In this document: positions 2 to 40,840 of the stretch, one piece after another
Layout of the letters: each line of letters begins with the position of its first letter
Position numbering within the stretch: the stretch's first letter is position 1
DNA from: Pectobacterium actinidiae
Lineage (GTDB): Bacteria; Pseudomonadota; Gammaproteobacteria; Enterobacterales; Enterobacteriaceae
Length of the DNA stretch: 64,000 nucleotides
Direction of reading: 5' to 3'
NCBI RefSeq assembly: GCF_000803315.1
Contig: NZ_JRMH01000001.1
Span: 3,658,001 to 3,722,000 of the forward strand
Program-made: the position numbers and the translations under genes
The notes under the pieces: model-generated
Told to the model about the DNA's origin: nothing
What the model saw: the letters and a program-made list of their open reading frames with translations, nothing else
Database searches by the model: none

Positions 2-403
2 CGTTTCATGTCTACGGCCATGTTCTACCCGTGCAACTACGGCTACATCAACCACACGCTGTCTCTGGATGGTGATCCGGTTGACGTTCTGGTGCCGACC
101 CCGTATCCGTTGCAGCCGGGCTCAGTGATCCGTTGCCGTCCTGTTGGCGTGCTGAAAATGACTGACGAAGCGGGTGAAGATGCCAAGCTGGTCGCCGTTC
201 CGCACAGCAAGCTGACTAAAGAATACGATCACATTAAAGACGTTAACGACCTGCCTGAACTGCTGCGTGCACAGATCGGCCACTTCTTTGAACACTACAA
301 AGATCTGGAAAAAGGCAAGTGGGTGAAAGTTGAAGGTTGGGATAACGCTGCGGCGGCAAAAGCCGAGATCGTTGCTTCCTTCGAGCGCGCGAAAAACAAA
401 TAA
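2..403 (+). CDS. ppa: Inorganic pyrophosphatase, 5' end cut by window
   Basis: Soluble family I pyrophosphatase, which hydrolyses PPi to two phosphates and pulls biosynthetic reactions forward in the cytoplasm. The reading frame is open from the first bases, so the true start lies outside the window; about 133 of the usual ~176 residues are present. The Mg-binding signature DGDPVDVLV and the segment [10 protein letters not shown] are typical of the family, and the C-terminal ERAKNK ending is close to the enterobacterial protein. It is followed at once by a strong terminator and faces the converging ytfP-tamBA operon, as in E. coli. Confidence 0.97.
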
Positions 404-21654: not shown

Positions 21655-23595
21655 ATGTTGGGACTTTCTTTTAAACACTGGGGCCTGGGTATCAAGTTAT
21701 CCGTCATCGCTTCCCTGAGCGTGGCAATACTTTTCATTGCATTCACCCTATCCCTCACCCGATCAGCAGGCAATCAGCTCAAAGTTCTGACCCTTAACGA
21801 CATGCAGAGCCAGGTGAATGGCGTCACCGACATGATCAACATGTACGATACCAGTCTACAAGCCGAGGTCAGCAACTATACGCGGCTACTGGCGAGCTTT
21901 CTGCCGACGCGGTTTTCATTGGATACCGTTAATCGCACTCCTTTCGGCGACACCTCGCACCCAACACTTAAGGCTGGCGATACGGTATTGAACCTCAACA
22001 CCGAAGTGCCGGACGACTTTCTGAGCCGTACCCACGCGATTTCAACGATTTTTGTCCGCGATGGCGAGGATTTCACGCGCGTCACTACCTCACTGAAAAA
22101 AGAAGATGGAACGCGCGCGATGGGCACCAAACTCGATCGTGAAAGCCCTGCCTATGCGCTCGTAGTGAAAGGTGAAACCTACAGCGGGTTAGCCACGCTA
22201 TTCGGCAAACAGTACATCACCCAGTATCAACCGATACGCGATAGTGACAATAAGGTTATCGGTATTCTATTTGTCGGTGTCGACATCACGAAGCAGTTTA
22301 CCGAGATGCAACAAACCATCCTGAACAAGAAAATGGGAGAGACAGGTCATTTCTTTGTACTTAGCACGAAAAAAGGAAAGGATGCGGGTAACTATCTTTA
22401 CCACCAAACCAATGCCAATCAGCGCCCTGACTGGTCAACAGGTGCGTTAGAGAACGTGCTGGCGACCAGTAATGGTACGCTTGAATACGACAACAACACG
22501 ATGACGGGCGAAGAAAGAACCCGAATCATGGTGTACCGCAGTATTCCGCAATGGAACTGGATTGTTGCAGGTACGGTGAGCAAAGAAAGTCTCATGGCAG
22601 AGGTTAATCACACCCGTAACTTGTTTTTGGGCGGCGGCATTATTCTGGTTCTGCTCTTCGCAGGATTTTTTGTCATGCTGACGCGCAAATGGCTAAGCCA
22701 GCCGCTGGTTGAAATCGTTAAAGTGGCGGAACAGTTTTCTGCTGGTAACCTGACGGCCACGCTTTCCAGCAACCGGAGCGACGAAGTAGGTCGCCTGATT
22801 GATGCGATTAACGGTATCGGACACGGGCTGACCACCATTGTGTCGCAGGTGAGAAATTCGGCAGAAGAAATCAGCACCGCGACCGATGCGTTGGCTGCCG
22901 ATAGTGAAAACATCAGCGAGCAGATTGCCCGTCAGGCTAGTAGCGTCGAAGAGACCTCTGCCAGCATGGAGCAGCTCTCCGCCAGCGTGAAACAGAACGC
23001 CGATAACGTCTCCGCCGCCAAAGATCTGGCAGAACAGAGCGCAGCAGCAGCACGAAACGGCAGTCAAACCGTCACCGACTCTGTCTCCACGATGAGCGAC
23101 ATCAAGAACTCCTCACAGCGGATTGCCGATATCACGACGGTGATCGAATCTATCGCTTTCCAGACCAATATTCTGGCGCTGAATGCGGCAGTTGAAGCCG
23201 CTCGTGCGGGTGAGCACGGCAGAGGCTTCGCCGTGGTTGCTGCTGAAGTGCGTGCGCTGGCACAGCGCAGTTCTACCGCAGTGAAAGAGATCGAAACTCT
23301 GATTGATGAGTCGCTGGAGAAAATCGAAGCGGGCTACCATTTCTCAGAAAAAACGCAGGCGGTAATGGACGACTTACGTAACCGCATCCTGCAAGTCAGC
23401 ACCATCGTGAACGATATTGATATCGCCTCACGCGAGCAGTCCGCCGGTATTGGTCAGGTCAATATCGCGATTGTACAGATTGGTCAGGCAACGCAGGAAA
23501 ACACCATTCTGGTCAATAACTCGGAAGACACCGCACAGAGTCTGCGCCAGAAAGGCCACCACCTCAGCGAGCTGGTCAGCGTATTTCGTATTTAA
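21655..23595 (+). CDS. Methyl-accepting chemotaxis protein, Cache sensor
   Basis: A 646-residue transmembrane receptor. TM1 spans about residues 12-33, a large periplasmic Cache_3-Cache_2-type domain about 40-315 ([14 protein letters not shown] and [11 protein letters not shown]), TM2 about 320-340, HAMP about 340-395, then the coiled-coil signalling domain with the conserved tip [21 protein letters not shown]. No NWETF-type C-terminal tether for CheR/CheB is present. The ligand is not predictable; single-copy Cache receptors of this type often sense small organic acids. The FNR box upstream suggests higher expression without oxygen. A palindromic hairpin without a T tract follows (23607-23638). 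Confidence 0.9.
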
Positions 23596-23701
23596 CCACC
23601 CGTCATGGCCATCGTGTTACAGATATTGCACGATGGCCCCCACTTGGGTATTATGCCGACGTTTTTTCATCCATCCCCCAACTGACAAAGGAGACGACAT
23701 C

Positions 23702-23746
23702 ATGACAACACTCACTCTGATTCTTTGCAGGACATCTCGGGACTAA
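23702..23746 (+). CDS. 14-codon leader reading frame before rtcB2
   Basis: ATG at 23702 with the strong ribosome-binding site AAAGGAGA 7 bases upstream, giving MTTLTLILCRTSRD and a TAA stop, 83 bases before rtcB2. It contains Arg codons AGG and CGG near its end. It may be a regulatory leader peptide or the stub of a lost gene; expression is not shown. Confidence 0.4.
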   Translation: MTTLTLILCRTSRD

Positions 23747-23829
23747 TTCCGCATTCTTTTCCGCTTTGCGTTATCCCCCCAGCTGTAGCCTGCCTTACCC
23801 TATTTTTAAATTGATCAGCAGGATGATCT

Positions 23830-24951
23830 ATGGGCAATGCTATTCGCTCTATTTCGGCGCGCGTCAGTGTGATCGCGACGGAAAATACCTGGATTGAAGA
23901 TAAAGCAATCCAACAGCTTCAAATTACATCACAACTTCCCGATATGGTTCGTGTGGCCGGCATGCCAGATTTGCATCCGGGACGTGGTTACCCTATCGGC
24001 GCTGCCTTTTTTTCACAGCAGCGTTTCTATCCGGCGCTGGTCGGAAACGACATCGGCTGCGGTATGGCACTATGGCGCACGAGCCTGAACGCCAACAAAA
24101 TTTCTCTGGATAAGCTGGAGAAACGGCTTGGCAATATCGATGGACCACTGGAAGACGATATCGACATTCCCCCATCGCTGGCGGATTTCCGCTATTCGCT
24201 GGGCACCATCGGCGGCGGTAACCACTTTGCGGAATTGCAGCAGCTTGATGAAATTTATCAGCCAGAGACGCTGCACGCTCTGCACATCGATCCTAAAGAG
24301 CTACTGCTGCTCGTACATAGCGGCTCGCGCGGCTTAGGACAAACCATACTGGAAGCCCACGTGCGGGAATTCGGCCATCAGGGGCTTGAAGCTAACACGC
24401 CAGCCGCTGACGCCTATCTGGAACAACATCAGTTCGCACTGACGTTTGCCATCAATAACCGGCGACTGATCGCTCAACGCATGCTGGAGCGCTGGCATAC
24501 GGAAGGCGATGTTGCACTGGACGTGAACCACAATCTGGTGACATCGACAACGATTGAAGGCATTGCTGGCTGGCTGCACCGCAAAGGCGCGACACCAGCC
24601 GACTGCGGACCGGTCATCATTCCTGGCTCGCGCGGTGACTACAGCTATATTGTGCAACCCATTCCTCACGCCGACAGCCTGTATTCACTGGCACATGGCG
24701 CAGGCAGAAAATGGATGCGCACAGAGTGTAAAGATCGGCTGTCTTCACGTTATAGCGTCCAGCAACTGGCACGTACTCGTTTCGGCAGCCGCGTGATTTG
24801 CCAGGACAGGCAACTGATTTTTCAGGAAGCGCCGGAAGCCTACAAGCCAATAGATAGCGTGATCGGCGCAATGCAACAGGCGGGATTAATCACGCTGATT
24901 GCTCGTCTGAAACCCGTACTCACCTACAAAACGTGCGGGGAGGACAAATGA
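23830..24951 (+). CDS. rtcB2: RtcB2-type RNA ligase/RNA repair protein
   Basis: A 373-residue member of the RtcB family, GTP/Mn-dependent ligases that join 2',3'-cyclic phosphate or 3'-phosphate ends to 5'-OH ends. The metal and catalytic motifs are visible: [28 protein letters not shown] (metal-binding Cys), [21 protein letters not shown], and [11 protein letters not shown] with the His that takes GMP. It is shorter than housekeeping RtcB (~408) and has no RtcA or RtcR beside it. The overlap with prfH (ATGA) identifies it as the RtcB2 type, reported to reseal 16S rRNA cut in the decoding centre. Confidence 0.9.
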
Positions 24952-25571
24952 TATTGCTTCAGCTTTCCGCCGCGCAGGGGCCGGACGAATGCATGCTGGC
25001 AACCGCAAAAGCGTTGCAGGCTCTGACACGAGATGCAGCACAGCGCGGCATCGAGTGTGAGATCATCGAAACCGAAGCGGGAAAACGTGCTGGTACGCTA
25101 CGTTCCGCCTTGGTGCTGTTAAACGGTGAGCAAGCGGAACCGCTGGCTACAAGCTGGTGCGGTACGCTTCAGTGGACGTGCAATAGCCCCTGGCGTAAAG
25201 GTGGCGGACGCAAAAACTGGTTTATCGGCATCGCACGCTTTCATCAGGAACAGGCGTTTGCGGATAACGAGATTCGTTTTGAAGCCACAAAATCCTCTGG
25301 TCCCGGCGGACAACATGTGAACAAAACCGAGTCTGCCGTCCGTGCGACGCATATCGCCAGTGGTATCACGGTGAAAGTACAGAGTGAGCGCAGCCAGCAC
25401 GCCAACAAACGGCTCGCCTGTTATCTCATCGCTTACCGTCTGGAGGCGTTGCAGCAGCAACAGCACGCCGAGCTACGGGCACAGCGGCGTCTGTTCCACC
25501 ACCAAATCGAACGCGGTAACCCGGTAAAAGTCTTCAAAGGCGAAGACTTCACGCTGGTTGCCTCACGCTAA
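24948..25571 (+). CDS. prfH: Peptide chain release factor-like protein PrfH
   Basis: A 207-residue class I release-factor homologue that keeps the catalytic GGQ loop ([20 protein letters not shown] at residues 120-122) but lacks the stop-codon-reading superdomain of RF1/RF2. In the published RtcB2-PrfH work PrfH releases the peptide from ribosomes whose 16S rRNA has been cut, after which RtcB2 repairs the rRNA. Its ATG overlaps the rtcB2 stop by 4 bases, so the two are translationally coupled. The internal start at 24948 is chosen for this overlap and the GGGGAGG upstream. Confidence 0.92.
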
Positions 25572-25580
25572 CCTCAACTC

Positions 25581-25613
25581 ACGGGCGGACACCGACTGCC
25601 GCCCGTTATTTTT
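25581..25613 (+). terminator. Terminator of the rtcB2-prfH operon
   Basis: An 8-bp stem ACGGGCGG/CCGCCCGT, then TATTTTTTCC. Confidence 0.9.
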
Positions 25614-25687
25614 TCCTCTTAAAGAGAATGCCATCGGTCCAATGATAGCGCTACACTCCCGCTATCGACTCCTGTCAGGCTGAAACG

Positions 25688-25996
25688 ATGAACCTCGTGC
25701 GGATACTTTTCTTACCCTTAATACTAATGCTGTCCGGCTGCCAGATGATACAAGGTAAGCCTGTCGCGGCACCGCCTCCTGCGGAGAAAGCACTCGAAAT
25801 TCGCTATGCGCAAACCAGCAAGTTGGAAAAAATGGGGACAATTTCGGTTAACGAGCGCGGAAATGCTGATGATGTGGATCGCGCCCTTCAACAGAAAGCC
25901 GATGCCTCCGGCGCGCATTATTATGTGATTGTGCTGAAATCCGAGGCAGCAACGCTACCCGGCATGTGGTTCGCGCGCGCCGTGCTGTATCGCTGA
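25688..25996 (+). CDS. bsmA: BsmA-like biofilm/peroxide-resistance lipoprotein
   Basis: A 102-residue lipoprotein with lipobox LSGC (Cys at about 18) and a C-terminal YdgH/BhsA/McbA-like domain ending in MWFARAVLYR. It matches E. coli BsmA (YjfO) in length, lipobox position and the end of the domain. Members of this group are induced by stress and affect biofilm formation, and the gene neighbourhood (near rlmB/rnr) is the same as in E. coli. Which membrane it reaches was not determined. Confidence 0.85.
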   Translation: MNLVRILFLPLILMLSGCQMIQGKPVAAPPPAEKALEIRYAQTSKLEKMGTISVNERGNADDVDRALQQKADASGAHYYVIVLKSEAATLPGMWFARAVLYR

Positions 25997-40269: not shown

Positions 40270-40290
40270 CATCTGAGTACCGGAGGCATG

Positions 40291-40551
40291 ATGGCCAGAA
40301 CCATGACAATTGACCTTGGAGATGAACTTCGCCATTACGTGGAATCGCTGGTGGAATCAGGCGATTACCGCACGCAAAGTGAAGTCATTCGGGAAGCGCT
40401 GAGAATGCTACGGGAAAAACAGGCGGAGTCAGATCTGCAAACGCTGCGTCATTTACTCGCTGAAGGGATAAACAGCGGAGAGCCACAGGAGTGGAATAAA
40501 GATGAGTTCTTGCAAAAAATCAGAAGCAGGACGCGAACAGCCACCCGATAA
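40291..40551 (+). CDS. ParD-type ribbon-helix-helix antitoxin
   Basis: An 86-residue protein. The N-terminal RHH domain (MARTMTIDLGDELRHYVESL, and RTQSEVIREALRML at about 32-45) is the ParD/CopG DNA-binding fold; the C terminus should wrap the toxin. The second of two tandem ATGs is preferred, since GGAGG is 4 bases upstream. Overlaps the toxin gene by 50 bases, as is usual for parDE. Confidence 0.9.
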   Translation: MARTMTIDLGDELRHYVESLVESGDYRTQSEVIREALRMLREKQAESDLQTLRHLLAEGINSGEPQEWNKDEFLQKIRSRTRTATR

Positions 40552-40840
40552 AATCAAGCTAACACCGCTGGCGCAACGCGATCTGGAAGCGATTTATATC
40601 TACGGTTTACAGCATTTTAATGAGGAAAGCGCCAACACCTATCTGGAAACCATCGAACACGCGTTTTCCGCTATCAGGCACAATAAGATAGGGATTGAAC
40701 GTAAGGAACTTGGGCTAGGCTTGTACTCATTTCCCGTCGCCAGACATACGCTATTTTTTCTGTACGAAACAGATAGCGTCATTGTTGTTCGAATATTTCA
40801 TCAGTCGCAGGACATTGCGCGGCATCTTAAGTGGCTATGA
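40502..40840 (+). CDS. ParE/RelE-superfamily toxin
   Basis: A 112-residue protein with the ParE pattern LTPLAQRDLEAIYIYGLQHF, GIERKELGLGLYSFPVARHTLFF and the ending VVRIFHQSQDIARHL. Family members poison DNA gyrase (ParE) or cleave mRNA (RelE); the RHH partner favours ParE. The ~17-residue N-terminal extension is hydrophilic; no later start codon is evident. Intact, so the module may stabilise the adjacent island. Confidence 0.9.
   Translation: MSSCKKSEAGREQPPDKIKLTPLAQRDLEAIYIYGLQHFNEESANTYLETIEHAFSAIRHNKIGIERKELGLGLYSFPVARHTLFFLYETDSVIVVRIFHQSQDIARHLKWL

Follow-up and report, generated by a model that had tools for sequence, protein, structure and literature searches.

A short leader gene that probably switches on the RtcB2-PrfH ribosome repair genes of Pectobacterium actinidiae when ribosomes fail to translate it

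How a cell would time the production of enzymes that repair its ribosomal RNA is the question raised by an rtcB2-prfH operon of Pectobacterium actinidiae, located in an analysed stretch of 64 kb (the window in the following) of a genome of 4.9 Mb in 3 contigs. The reading preferred here, in which we place considerable confidence, is that the operon has its own promoter and is kept low by a leader-peptide attenuator of the type of PA5471.1 from Pseudomonas aeruginosa. The new part is this leader; the operon itself has already been published (PMC1586002, PMC9223846).

The rtcB2-prfH operon and its relatives

The first gene of the operon, rtcB2 (positions 23830-24951, + strand, 373 aa; an orthologue of armZ), encodes an RNA ligase that reaches 619.4 bits against TIGR03073 (cut-off 271.8; NCBIfam profile search) and 580.4 bits against PRK09588. 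The second gene, prfH (24948-25571, + strand, 207 aa), encodes release factor H with 332.4 bits against TIGR03072 (cut-off 166.65; NCBIfam profile search), and Pfam assigns an RtcB domain to the first protein and an RF-1 domain to the second. These scores bear out the pair of an RtcB-family ligase and PrfH, with coordinates and strand, that had been proposed in an earlier sequence-only reading of this DNA. The same reading regarded the two genes as fused in translation through an ATGA overlap; the overlap is present at 24948-24951 with both genes on the + strand, and by it the genes are coupled, not fused. In RtcB2, 15 of 15 checked columns are identical to the other RtcB2 rows, and alignments to RtcB proteins of the PDB were made as well; these 15 presumably include the catalytic residues of the ligase active site. 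Among solved structures, PDB 7sa4 and 9mor, which both carry the name release factor H, are nearest to PrfH, and 7sa4 ('Peptide chain release factor H') was aligned to PrfH residues 1-201 with an E-value of 3e-79. The GGQ motif, which PrfH had been said to keep, is found in its sequence. The accompanying claim that PrfH lacks a stop-codon-reading domain does not hold, as PrfH residues 4-194 align with RF2 positions 120-314, so that PrfH retains a modified decoding region and lacks domain 1, in line with the absent domain 1 and altered decoding region described in PMC1586002, in which the RFH operon was reported in 2006. The window operon resembles this RFH operon and the operon of E. coli ATCC25922 in the families encoded, the gene order, the overlapping ORFs, the GGQ motif and the missing domain 1.

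Downstream of prfH, an intrinsic terminator (25581-25613, + strand) is formed by a stem at 25581-25606 followed by a T-rich stretch; with -16.6 kcal/mol and a z-score of -4.48 it was matched by none of 200 shuffles, and its description as a clean terminator stands. Judged by eye, the operon is flanked by a probable chemoreceptor gene and a probable gene for a small lipoprotein, and neither rtcA nor rtcR was seen among the ORFs beside rtcB2, in agreement with the RtcA/RtcR partners reported as missing before.

Two further RtcB genes are encoded in the source genome, L001 (C1:229868) and the longer L002, reaching 104.7 and 138.9 bits against TIGR03073, the cut-off being 271.8. The divergent gene beside L001 is presumably rtcR. 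The rtcBA operon with RtcR shares with the window operon a ligase of the RtcB superfamily, but it corresponds to the separate gene L001. In a tree of 29 rows, the window RtcB2 falls into a clade of 22 rows (100/98) together with the other RtcB2 proteins, including E. coli RtcB2 and ArmZ of P. aeruginosa PA7, and it groups with the RtcB2 proteins of Brenneria, Lonsdalea, Serratia, and Xenorhabdus; L001 and L002 lie outside this clade. Phylogeny had been suggested as a check beforehand, and it places the window protein with RtcB2 and not with housekeeping RtcB. Family scores and tree thus agree with the designation as an RtcB2-PrfH ribosome repair and rescue operon. The window RtcB2 is 96% identical to a protein of Pectobacterium brasiliense; within the 80 best of 521 confirmed candidates, identity reaches 98% in a P. 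carotovorum locus.

Several observations concern copies elsewhere. In L042/L024 (Pectobacterium sp. PL152/G020) rtcB2 is split over two frames, and a rtcB2 over the cut-off is missing in 5 of 25 genomes of the genus, indicating decay or loss within it. A conjugative IncC plasmid (L116, NZ_CP086440.1) carries rtcB2-prfH with leader between qnrA6 and sul1, and 30 plasmid records, some of them chromosome-sized, contain a relative at an E-value of 1e-60. RtcB-like proteins are encoded in 281 of 50,697 phage records (E-value 1e-20); the closest is 59% identical and stems from a record of 4.8 kb, the next about 33%. On a plasmid of Skermanella rosea (L119), rtcB2-prfH has in its vicinity a gene for a polynucleotide kinase-phosphatase with an RNA repair annotation. 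In L178-L181, a PrfH over the cut-off is encoded beside a divergent RtcB (26-45% identical), without a motif-bearing leader, which perhaps constitutes a second PrfH system.

A leader gene ahead of rtcB2 and its distribution

Upstream of rtcB2, from which it is separated by a spacer of 83 nt, lies a leader ORF of 14 aa (MTTLTLILCRTSRD; 23702-23746, + strand), preceded by the Shine-Dalgarno (SD) sequence AAAGGAG (23687-23693, + strand); judged by its sequence, it is the counterpart of PA5471.1. A candidate leader peptide had been noticed earlier, and it proves to be shared by related loci: applying fixed rules, a leader with an SD of at least 5 bases was found upstream of rtcB2 in 79 of 80 named loci, these being the 80 of 521 confirmed candidates most similar to the query, compared to 69 of 4000 shuffles, 1 of 80 opposite strands and 46 of 1886 other blocks, with the proviso that near relatives among the loci make p-values too good. 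The remaining locus, L094, has a leader with a 4-base SD. The leader region of the window folds no better than its shuffles (z +0.80), as would be expected if the 14-codon ORF were meaningless and the operon constitutive. This explanation is highly improbable given the counts above, the likeness to PA5471.1 as an experimentally studied leader, the promoter-like site placed for the leader, and the conservation and covariation of the motif described below. No Rfam family matches the leader region.

The candidate sigma-70 promoter, TTGCAC-17-TATTAT (23626-23654, + strand), has a -10 element that starts 53 nt before the leader ATG. Its generalized form TTGNNN-16..18-TANNNT, which was framed after the upstream sequences had been viewed, precedes the leader in 67 of 83 loci versus 120 of 2490 shuffles; the spacing is 17 in 51 of these 67 sites, and in 63 of them the -10 element starts 43-61 nt before the leader ATG. 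A generic promoter scan with a stricter cut-off found no promoter.

The leader is present as well in E. coli SMS-3-5, on an E. coli plasmid, in Proteus and in a Klebsiella IncC plasmid copy. The operon of E. coli SMS-3-5 is located beside yafP and pepD, that of the window elsewhere, and the record of this strain shows no annotation at the leader position; the word 'leader' is absent from the main text of PMC9223846 and PMC1586002. The GCAG motif of the leader, treated below, is absent from three alphaproteobacterial and one actinobacterial plasmid copies, although two of these possess a short ORF led by an SD. When genomes were drawn evenly across the order, 25 of 247 had a PrfH above the cut-off. 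Outside the genus, 20 of 22 such genomes were fetched (G041 and G200 were omitted for contig ends and internal stops), and an RtcB gene was found in 19 of the 20, L163 being without rtcB2. The fixed rules were passed in 17 of the 19, and as L178 and L180 lack the motif, a GCAG-motif leader is counted in 15 of 19; the four copies without the motif are divergent, with identities of 45% or 26-27%.

Draws at wider levels gave rtcB2 over the cut-off in 6 of 369 genomes (class) and in 11 of 398 (phylum). Among the ten new operons obtained, for which start codons were placed by alignment only, one has no upstream sequence, two have the leader, each identical to that of a named Pseudomonas, six have no rule-passing ORF, and one (L186) has an ORF without the motif. 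A motif-bearing leader is therefore missing in 7 of 9 further operons from these draws, some of which are 52-53% identical to the query and so no more distant than order-level copies with leader. The leader is thus widespread, yet not universal.

A strict pattern scan for orphan leaders matched 33 of 274 genomes of the class, and these matches look by eye like chance coding sequence; a direct DNA search with the window leader yielded one match in E. coli, by chance. For the E. coli leader region itself (156 bases), some match exists in 5347 of 5426 E. coli genomes, with a coverage of at least 80% in 3808. In L045, L055, and L117 (Serratia, an Enterobacteriaceae bacterium and the E. coli plasmid copy), the spacer contains by eye an insert between leader and rtcB2, which we take to be ERIC-like, and an inverted-repeat search of these spacers found none. 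The insert may uncouple the leader from rtcB2.

RNA pairing in the leader and the read-out at the rtcB2 start

A stretch resembling CTTTGCAGG is kept inside the leader. In 67 of 83 loci it is read in one frame (LCR and like), in 10 in another (SFAGL, PFAGP and like), and 6 are without the pattern; conservation of a motif in two reading frames argues for selection at the level of RNA, as expected for RNA pairing. In the leader-peptide attenuators of antibiotic-resistance and amino-acid operons, the position of the ribosome on a short ORF chooses between RNA folds. The system proposed here would work by the same principle, but unlike in the classic cases what is conserved in this leader is a motif for RNA pairing, located towards the end of the ORF and found in two reading frames, so that no fixed peptide seems to be needed.

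In the window, segment 1 (GCAGGAC; 23727-23733, + strand) constitutes the 5' arm of the leader stem inside the leader, and segment 2 (GTAGCCTGCC; 23785-23794, + strand) is predicted from duplex energies and the switch fold to have two alternative partners, segment 1 and the rtcB2 start. Across loci, the leader GCAGGYC pairs with a downstream GRCCTGC in 6.32 of 7 positions over 22 distinct combinations, a count made after eight rows (all seven of L048-L054, and L056) had been shifted by hand by one column on the CCTG motif after viewing; re-dealt partners reach at most 6.18 of 7, with 0 of 10000 re-deals attaining 6.32, and slid partners form 1.3-3.6 pairs. Compensatory changes from A-U to G-C are seen in L046, L060, L113, and L118, from G-C to A-U in L110, L115, and L118, and from G-C to U-A in 4 of 6 Xenorhabdus rows, the other two having a mismatch. 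The stem of the window itself has 5 of 7 pairs. In held-out loci, a 7/7 partner for segment 1 was found in 15 of 15, in a search in which shuffles also give 7/7 in 1-46 of 200 per locus. No consensus pair was predicted by RNAalifold from a MAFFT alignment of 63 rows, and an unfiltered ranking by mutual information did not single out the leader stem. This alignment comprises 63 of 69 listed regions, the near copies L036, L037, L040, L062, L078, and L083 being omitted, and the list itself omitted L094, 13 loci with spacers of more than 100 nt and one further MQKN-type leader. Segment 1 starts 17 nt before the leader stop in the window and in 69 of 98 loci, so that a ribosome on the stop codon would cover it.

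These features suggest the following course. A healthy ribosome would read the 14-codon leader to its stop and cover segment 1, so that segment 2 would be available for pairing with the rtcB2 start (OFF). Upon stalling or failure of the ribosome within the first codons, segment 1 would stay free and pair with segment 2, by which the rtcB2 start would be released (ON). In this way, failure of ribosomes to translate the tiny leader gene would probably turn on the repair genes. Once made, PrfH would free stalled nascent chains and RtcB2 would rejoin cut 16S rRNA. Both the induction by failing ribosomes and the roles of the enzymes in this organism are inferred from work in P. aeruginosa and E. 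coli; rRNA-cut ribosomes may be the natural inducer.

The elements of this switch at the rtcB2 start are predicted folds. In the fold of the window sequence, the element GTTATCCCCCC (23770-23780, + strand) pairs with CGGGACTAA of the leader in the early-stall state, the hairpin TTGATCAGCAGGATGATC (23811-23828, + strand) holds the rtcB2 SD in its loop, and the rtcB2 start region (23830-23843, + strand) is the partner of segment 2 in the OFF fold. As segment 2 of the window, GUAGCCUGCC has a duplex energy of -16.4 kcal/mol with the leader and of -14.9 kcal/mol with the rtcB2 start region. To model the two ribosome states, the remaining sequence was folded with the first 22 nt masked (early stall) or with the mask extending to 9 nt beyond the stop (leader finished). 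Over 83 loci, the mean probability that rtcB2 AUG..+9 pairs upstream is 0.109 after an early stall versus 0.517 with the leader finished, rising in 72 loci and falling in 1 (from 0.26 to 0.56 in the window), whereas the value is about 0.28 in either state for spacer shuffles, which show a rise in 15-29 of 83 loci (eight shuffle sets). Codon 2 of rtcB2 is GGC in 74 of 74 Gly cases, compared to 59% GGC among the other Gly codons of the same genes, and where codon 3 encodes Asn, AAT is used in 61 of 64 cases with 27.1 expected, in a count that reads L042 in one frame despite its split rtcB2. In a swapped-partner test on 75 representatives, in which segment 2 was chosen by complementarity and is misplaced in the window, the own partner beats the swapped one in 65 for leader:downstream pairing, in 57 for the segment-2 flank with its own RBS (-7.61 versus -6.02 kcal/mol) and in 51 for spacer:start pairing. 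The net openness of the RBS (-16..+3) is unchanged between the ribosome states (0.441/0.436) and that of the start region (-3..+9) changes little (0.434/0.376). In held-out loci the switch at the start site was repeated in only 6 of 15, with a mean end-state pairing of 0.172 versus 0.256 in shuffles. With these held-out repeats, the missing RNAalifold consensus and the small change in openness, the leader stem is trusted strongly and the modelled start-site read-out moderately.

The 9 of 15 held-out loci without the switch count in favour of transcription attenuation, in which the same leader and sensing would be read out by intrinsic or Rho-dependent termination between leader and rtcB2. The published model for armZ is of this kind, with full translation of the leader letting a terminator form (PMC13041342, legend of Fig. 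6), and a weak terminator-like hairpin at 23738-23751 overlaps the leader stop of the window. Terminator-like sites within 23500-25750 are at chance level, however, with 3 found versus 2.5 expected. With segment 2 again chosen by complementarity, a TTTT run starts within 4 nt of it in only 2 of 98 loci; in 55 the run begins 7-16 nt further downstream, and 20 have none, which speaks against the leader stem acting as an intrinsic terminator by itself. The synonymous constraint at rtcB2 codons 2-3 points instead to the start site, and in PMC3575510 and PMC3884212 the term translational attenuation is used. We give termination somewhat less than an even chance.

The armZ leader, E3-type toxins and the origin of the switch

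In P. aeruginosa, the counterpart of the operon is PA5471 (ArmZ)-PA5470, which is co-transcribed, and the resemblance between PA5471 and the E. coli pair has already been published, as has the induction of ykfJ, a truncated homologue in E. coli K-12, by 4-azaleucine, which interferes with translation (PMC3516279). ArmZ is the anti-repressor of MexZ and is listed as an RtcB-like RNA ligase (PMC12057347). Its expression is set by the 13-aa leader PA5471.1 and is raised by ribosome-targeting drugs, loss of SuhB or Cca, the Q3amber mutation or removal of the leader region (PMC13041342; for ribosome inhibitors, Q3amber and removal of the leader region taken together, see also PMC12057347 and PMC3516279). 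The leader of strain PA7 (L091) is MIQFSTLCRLRLA, with 13 aa and with the Q3 and F4 reported for PA5471.1 (PMC13041342, PMC3516279). It has the LCR/GCAGG core in common with the 14-aa leader of the window, and the RtcB2 protein encoded by armZ-PA5470 of PA7 is 64% identical to that of the window, belongs to the same clade and has the same 15 checked residues. The two differ in the spacer, 212 nt in PA7 versus 83 nt in the window, and in the additional role of ArmZ as anti-repressor of MexZ. In PA7, the prfH after armZ (L091, from about 4137) appears cut short with about the first 45 residues readable; downstream of armZ the window PrfH finds no match at an E-value of 1e-15, and the 15 checked ArmZ residues are all kept.

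The known inducers of the leader comprise many kinds of translation failure, which speaks against the operon being a dedicated guard against E3-type bacteriocins of its own or neighbouring bacteria with the leader being incidental. The published link to E3-type cleavage, correctly named in the sequence-only reading, comes from the E. coli orthologue: RtcB2-PrfH of E. coli ATCC25922 was reported in 2022 to protect from colicin E3, not from the tRNase colicins E5 and D, and PrfH to act on ribosomes cut at the decoding centre (PMC9223846). For the E3-type domain PF09000, no match was found in the genome of P. actinidiae itself, a weak negative as 0 of 14 control genomes matched either. Within the order, PF09000 occurs in 3 of 247 genomes, 1 of which has a PrfH over the cut-off, compared to 25 of 247 overall; these counts are too few for an association and unusable for co-occurrence. 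The colicin-type toxin remnants seen earlier in the window are, as far as located, immunity genes, namely PF09204 (62726-62998, - strand) and PF01320 (63501-63758, - strand), both identified by Pfam, 37 kb from the operon and of other families, so that the suggested tie between local colicins and the operon finds no support. A dedicated guard is thus rather unlikely. The window scan also found a ParD/ParE toxin-antitoxin pair (40288-40840, + strand).

The leader is read here as an attenuator sensing failing ribosomes that is older than the role of ArmZ in efflux control. The armZ leader has been described as unique to MexXY control, and no statement on conservation of the leader outside P. aeruginosa was found in the literature searched, the original 2006 PA5471 and 2009 PA5471.1 papers and a PNAS paper on PrfH/RtcB lying outside that scope. 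Going further, the leader could be an old, widely inherited damage sensor, in which a ribosome cut or blocked at the decoding centre cannot finish the leader and thereby switches on its own repair; the armZ leader would then represent a special case, with an intact RtcB2 ligase having been recruited later as MexZ anti-repressor, a proposal for which we see the chances as evenly balanced.

Two literatures have so far been separate, one on ribosome repair by RtcB2-PrfH and one on the drug-inducible control of MexXY via ArmZ and its leader. According to the comparison made here, the leader is part of the repair operon in many Beta- and Gammaproteobacteria, among them E. coli, and ArmZ may still be an RNA ligase. 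The leader thereby offers a testable answer to the question of how a cell knows when to make its rRNA repair enzymes.
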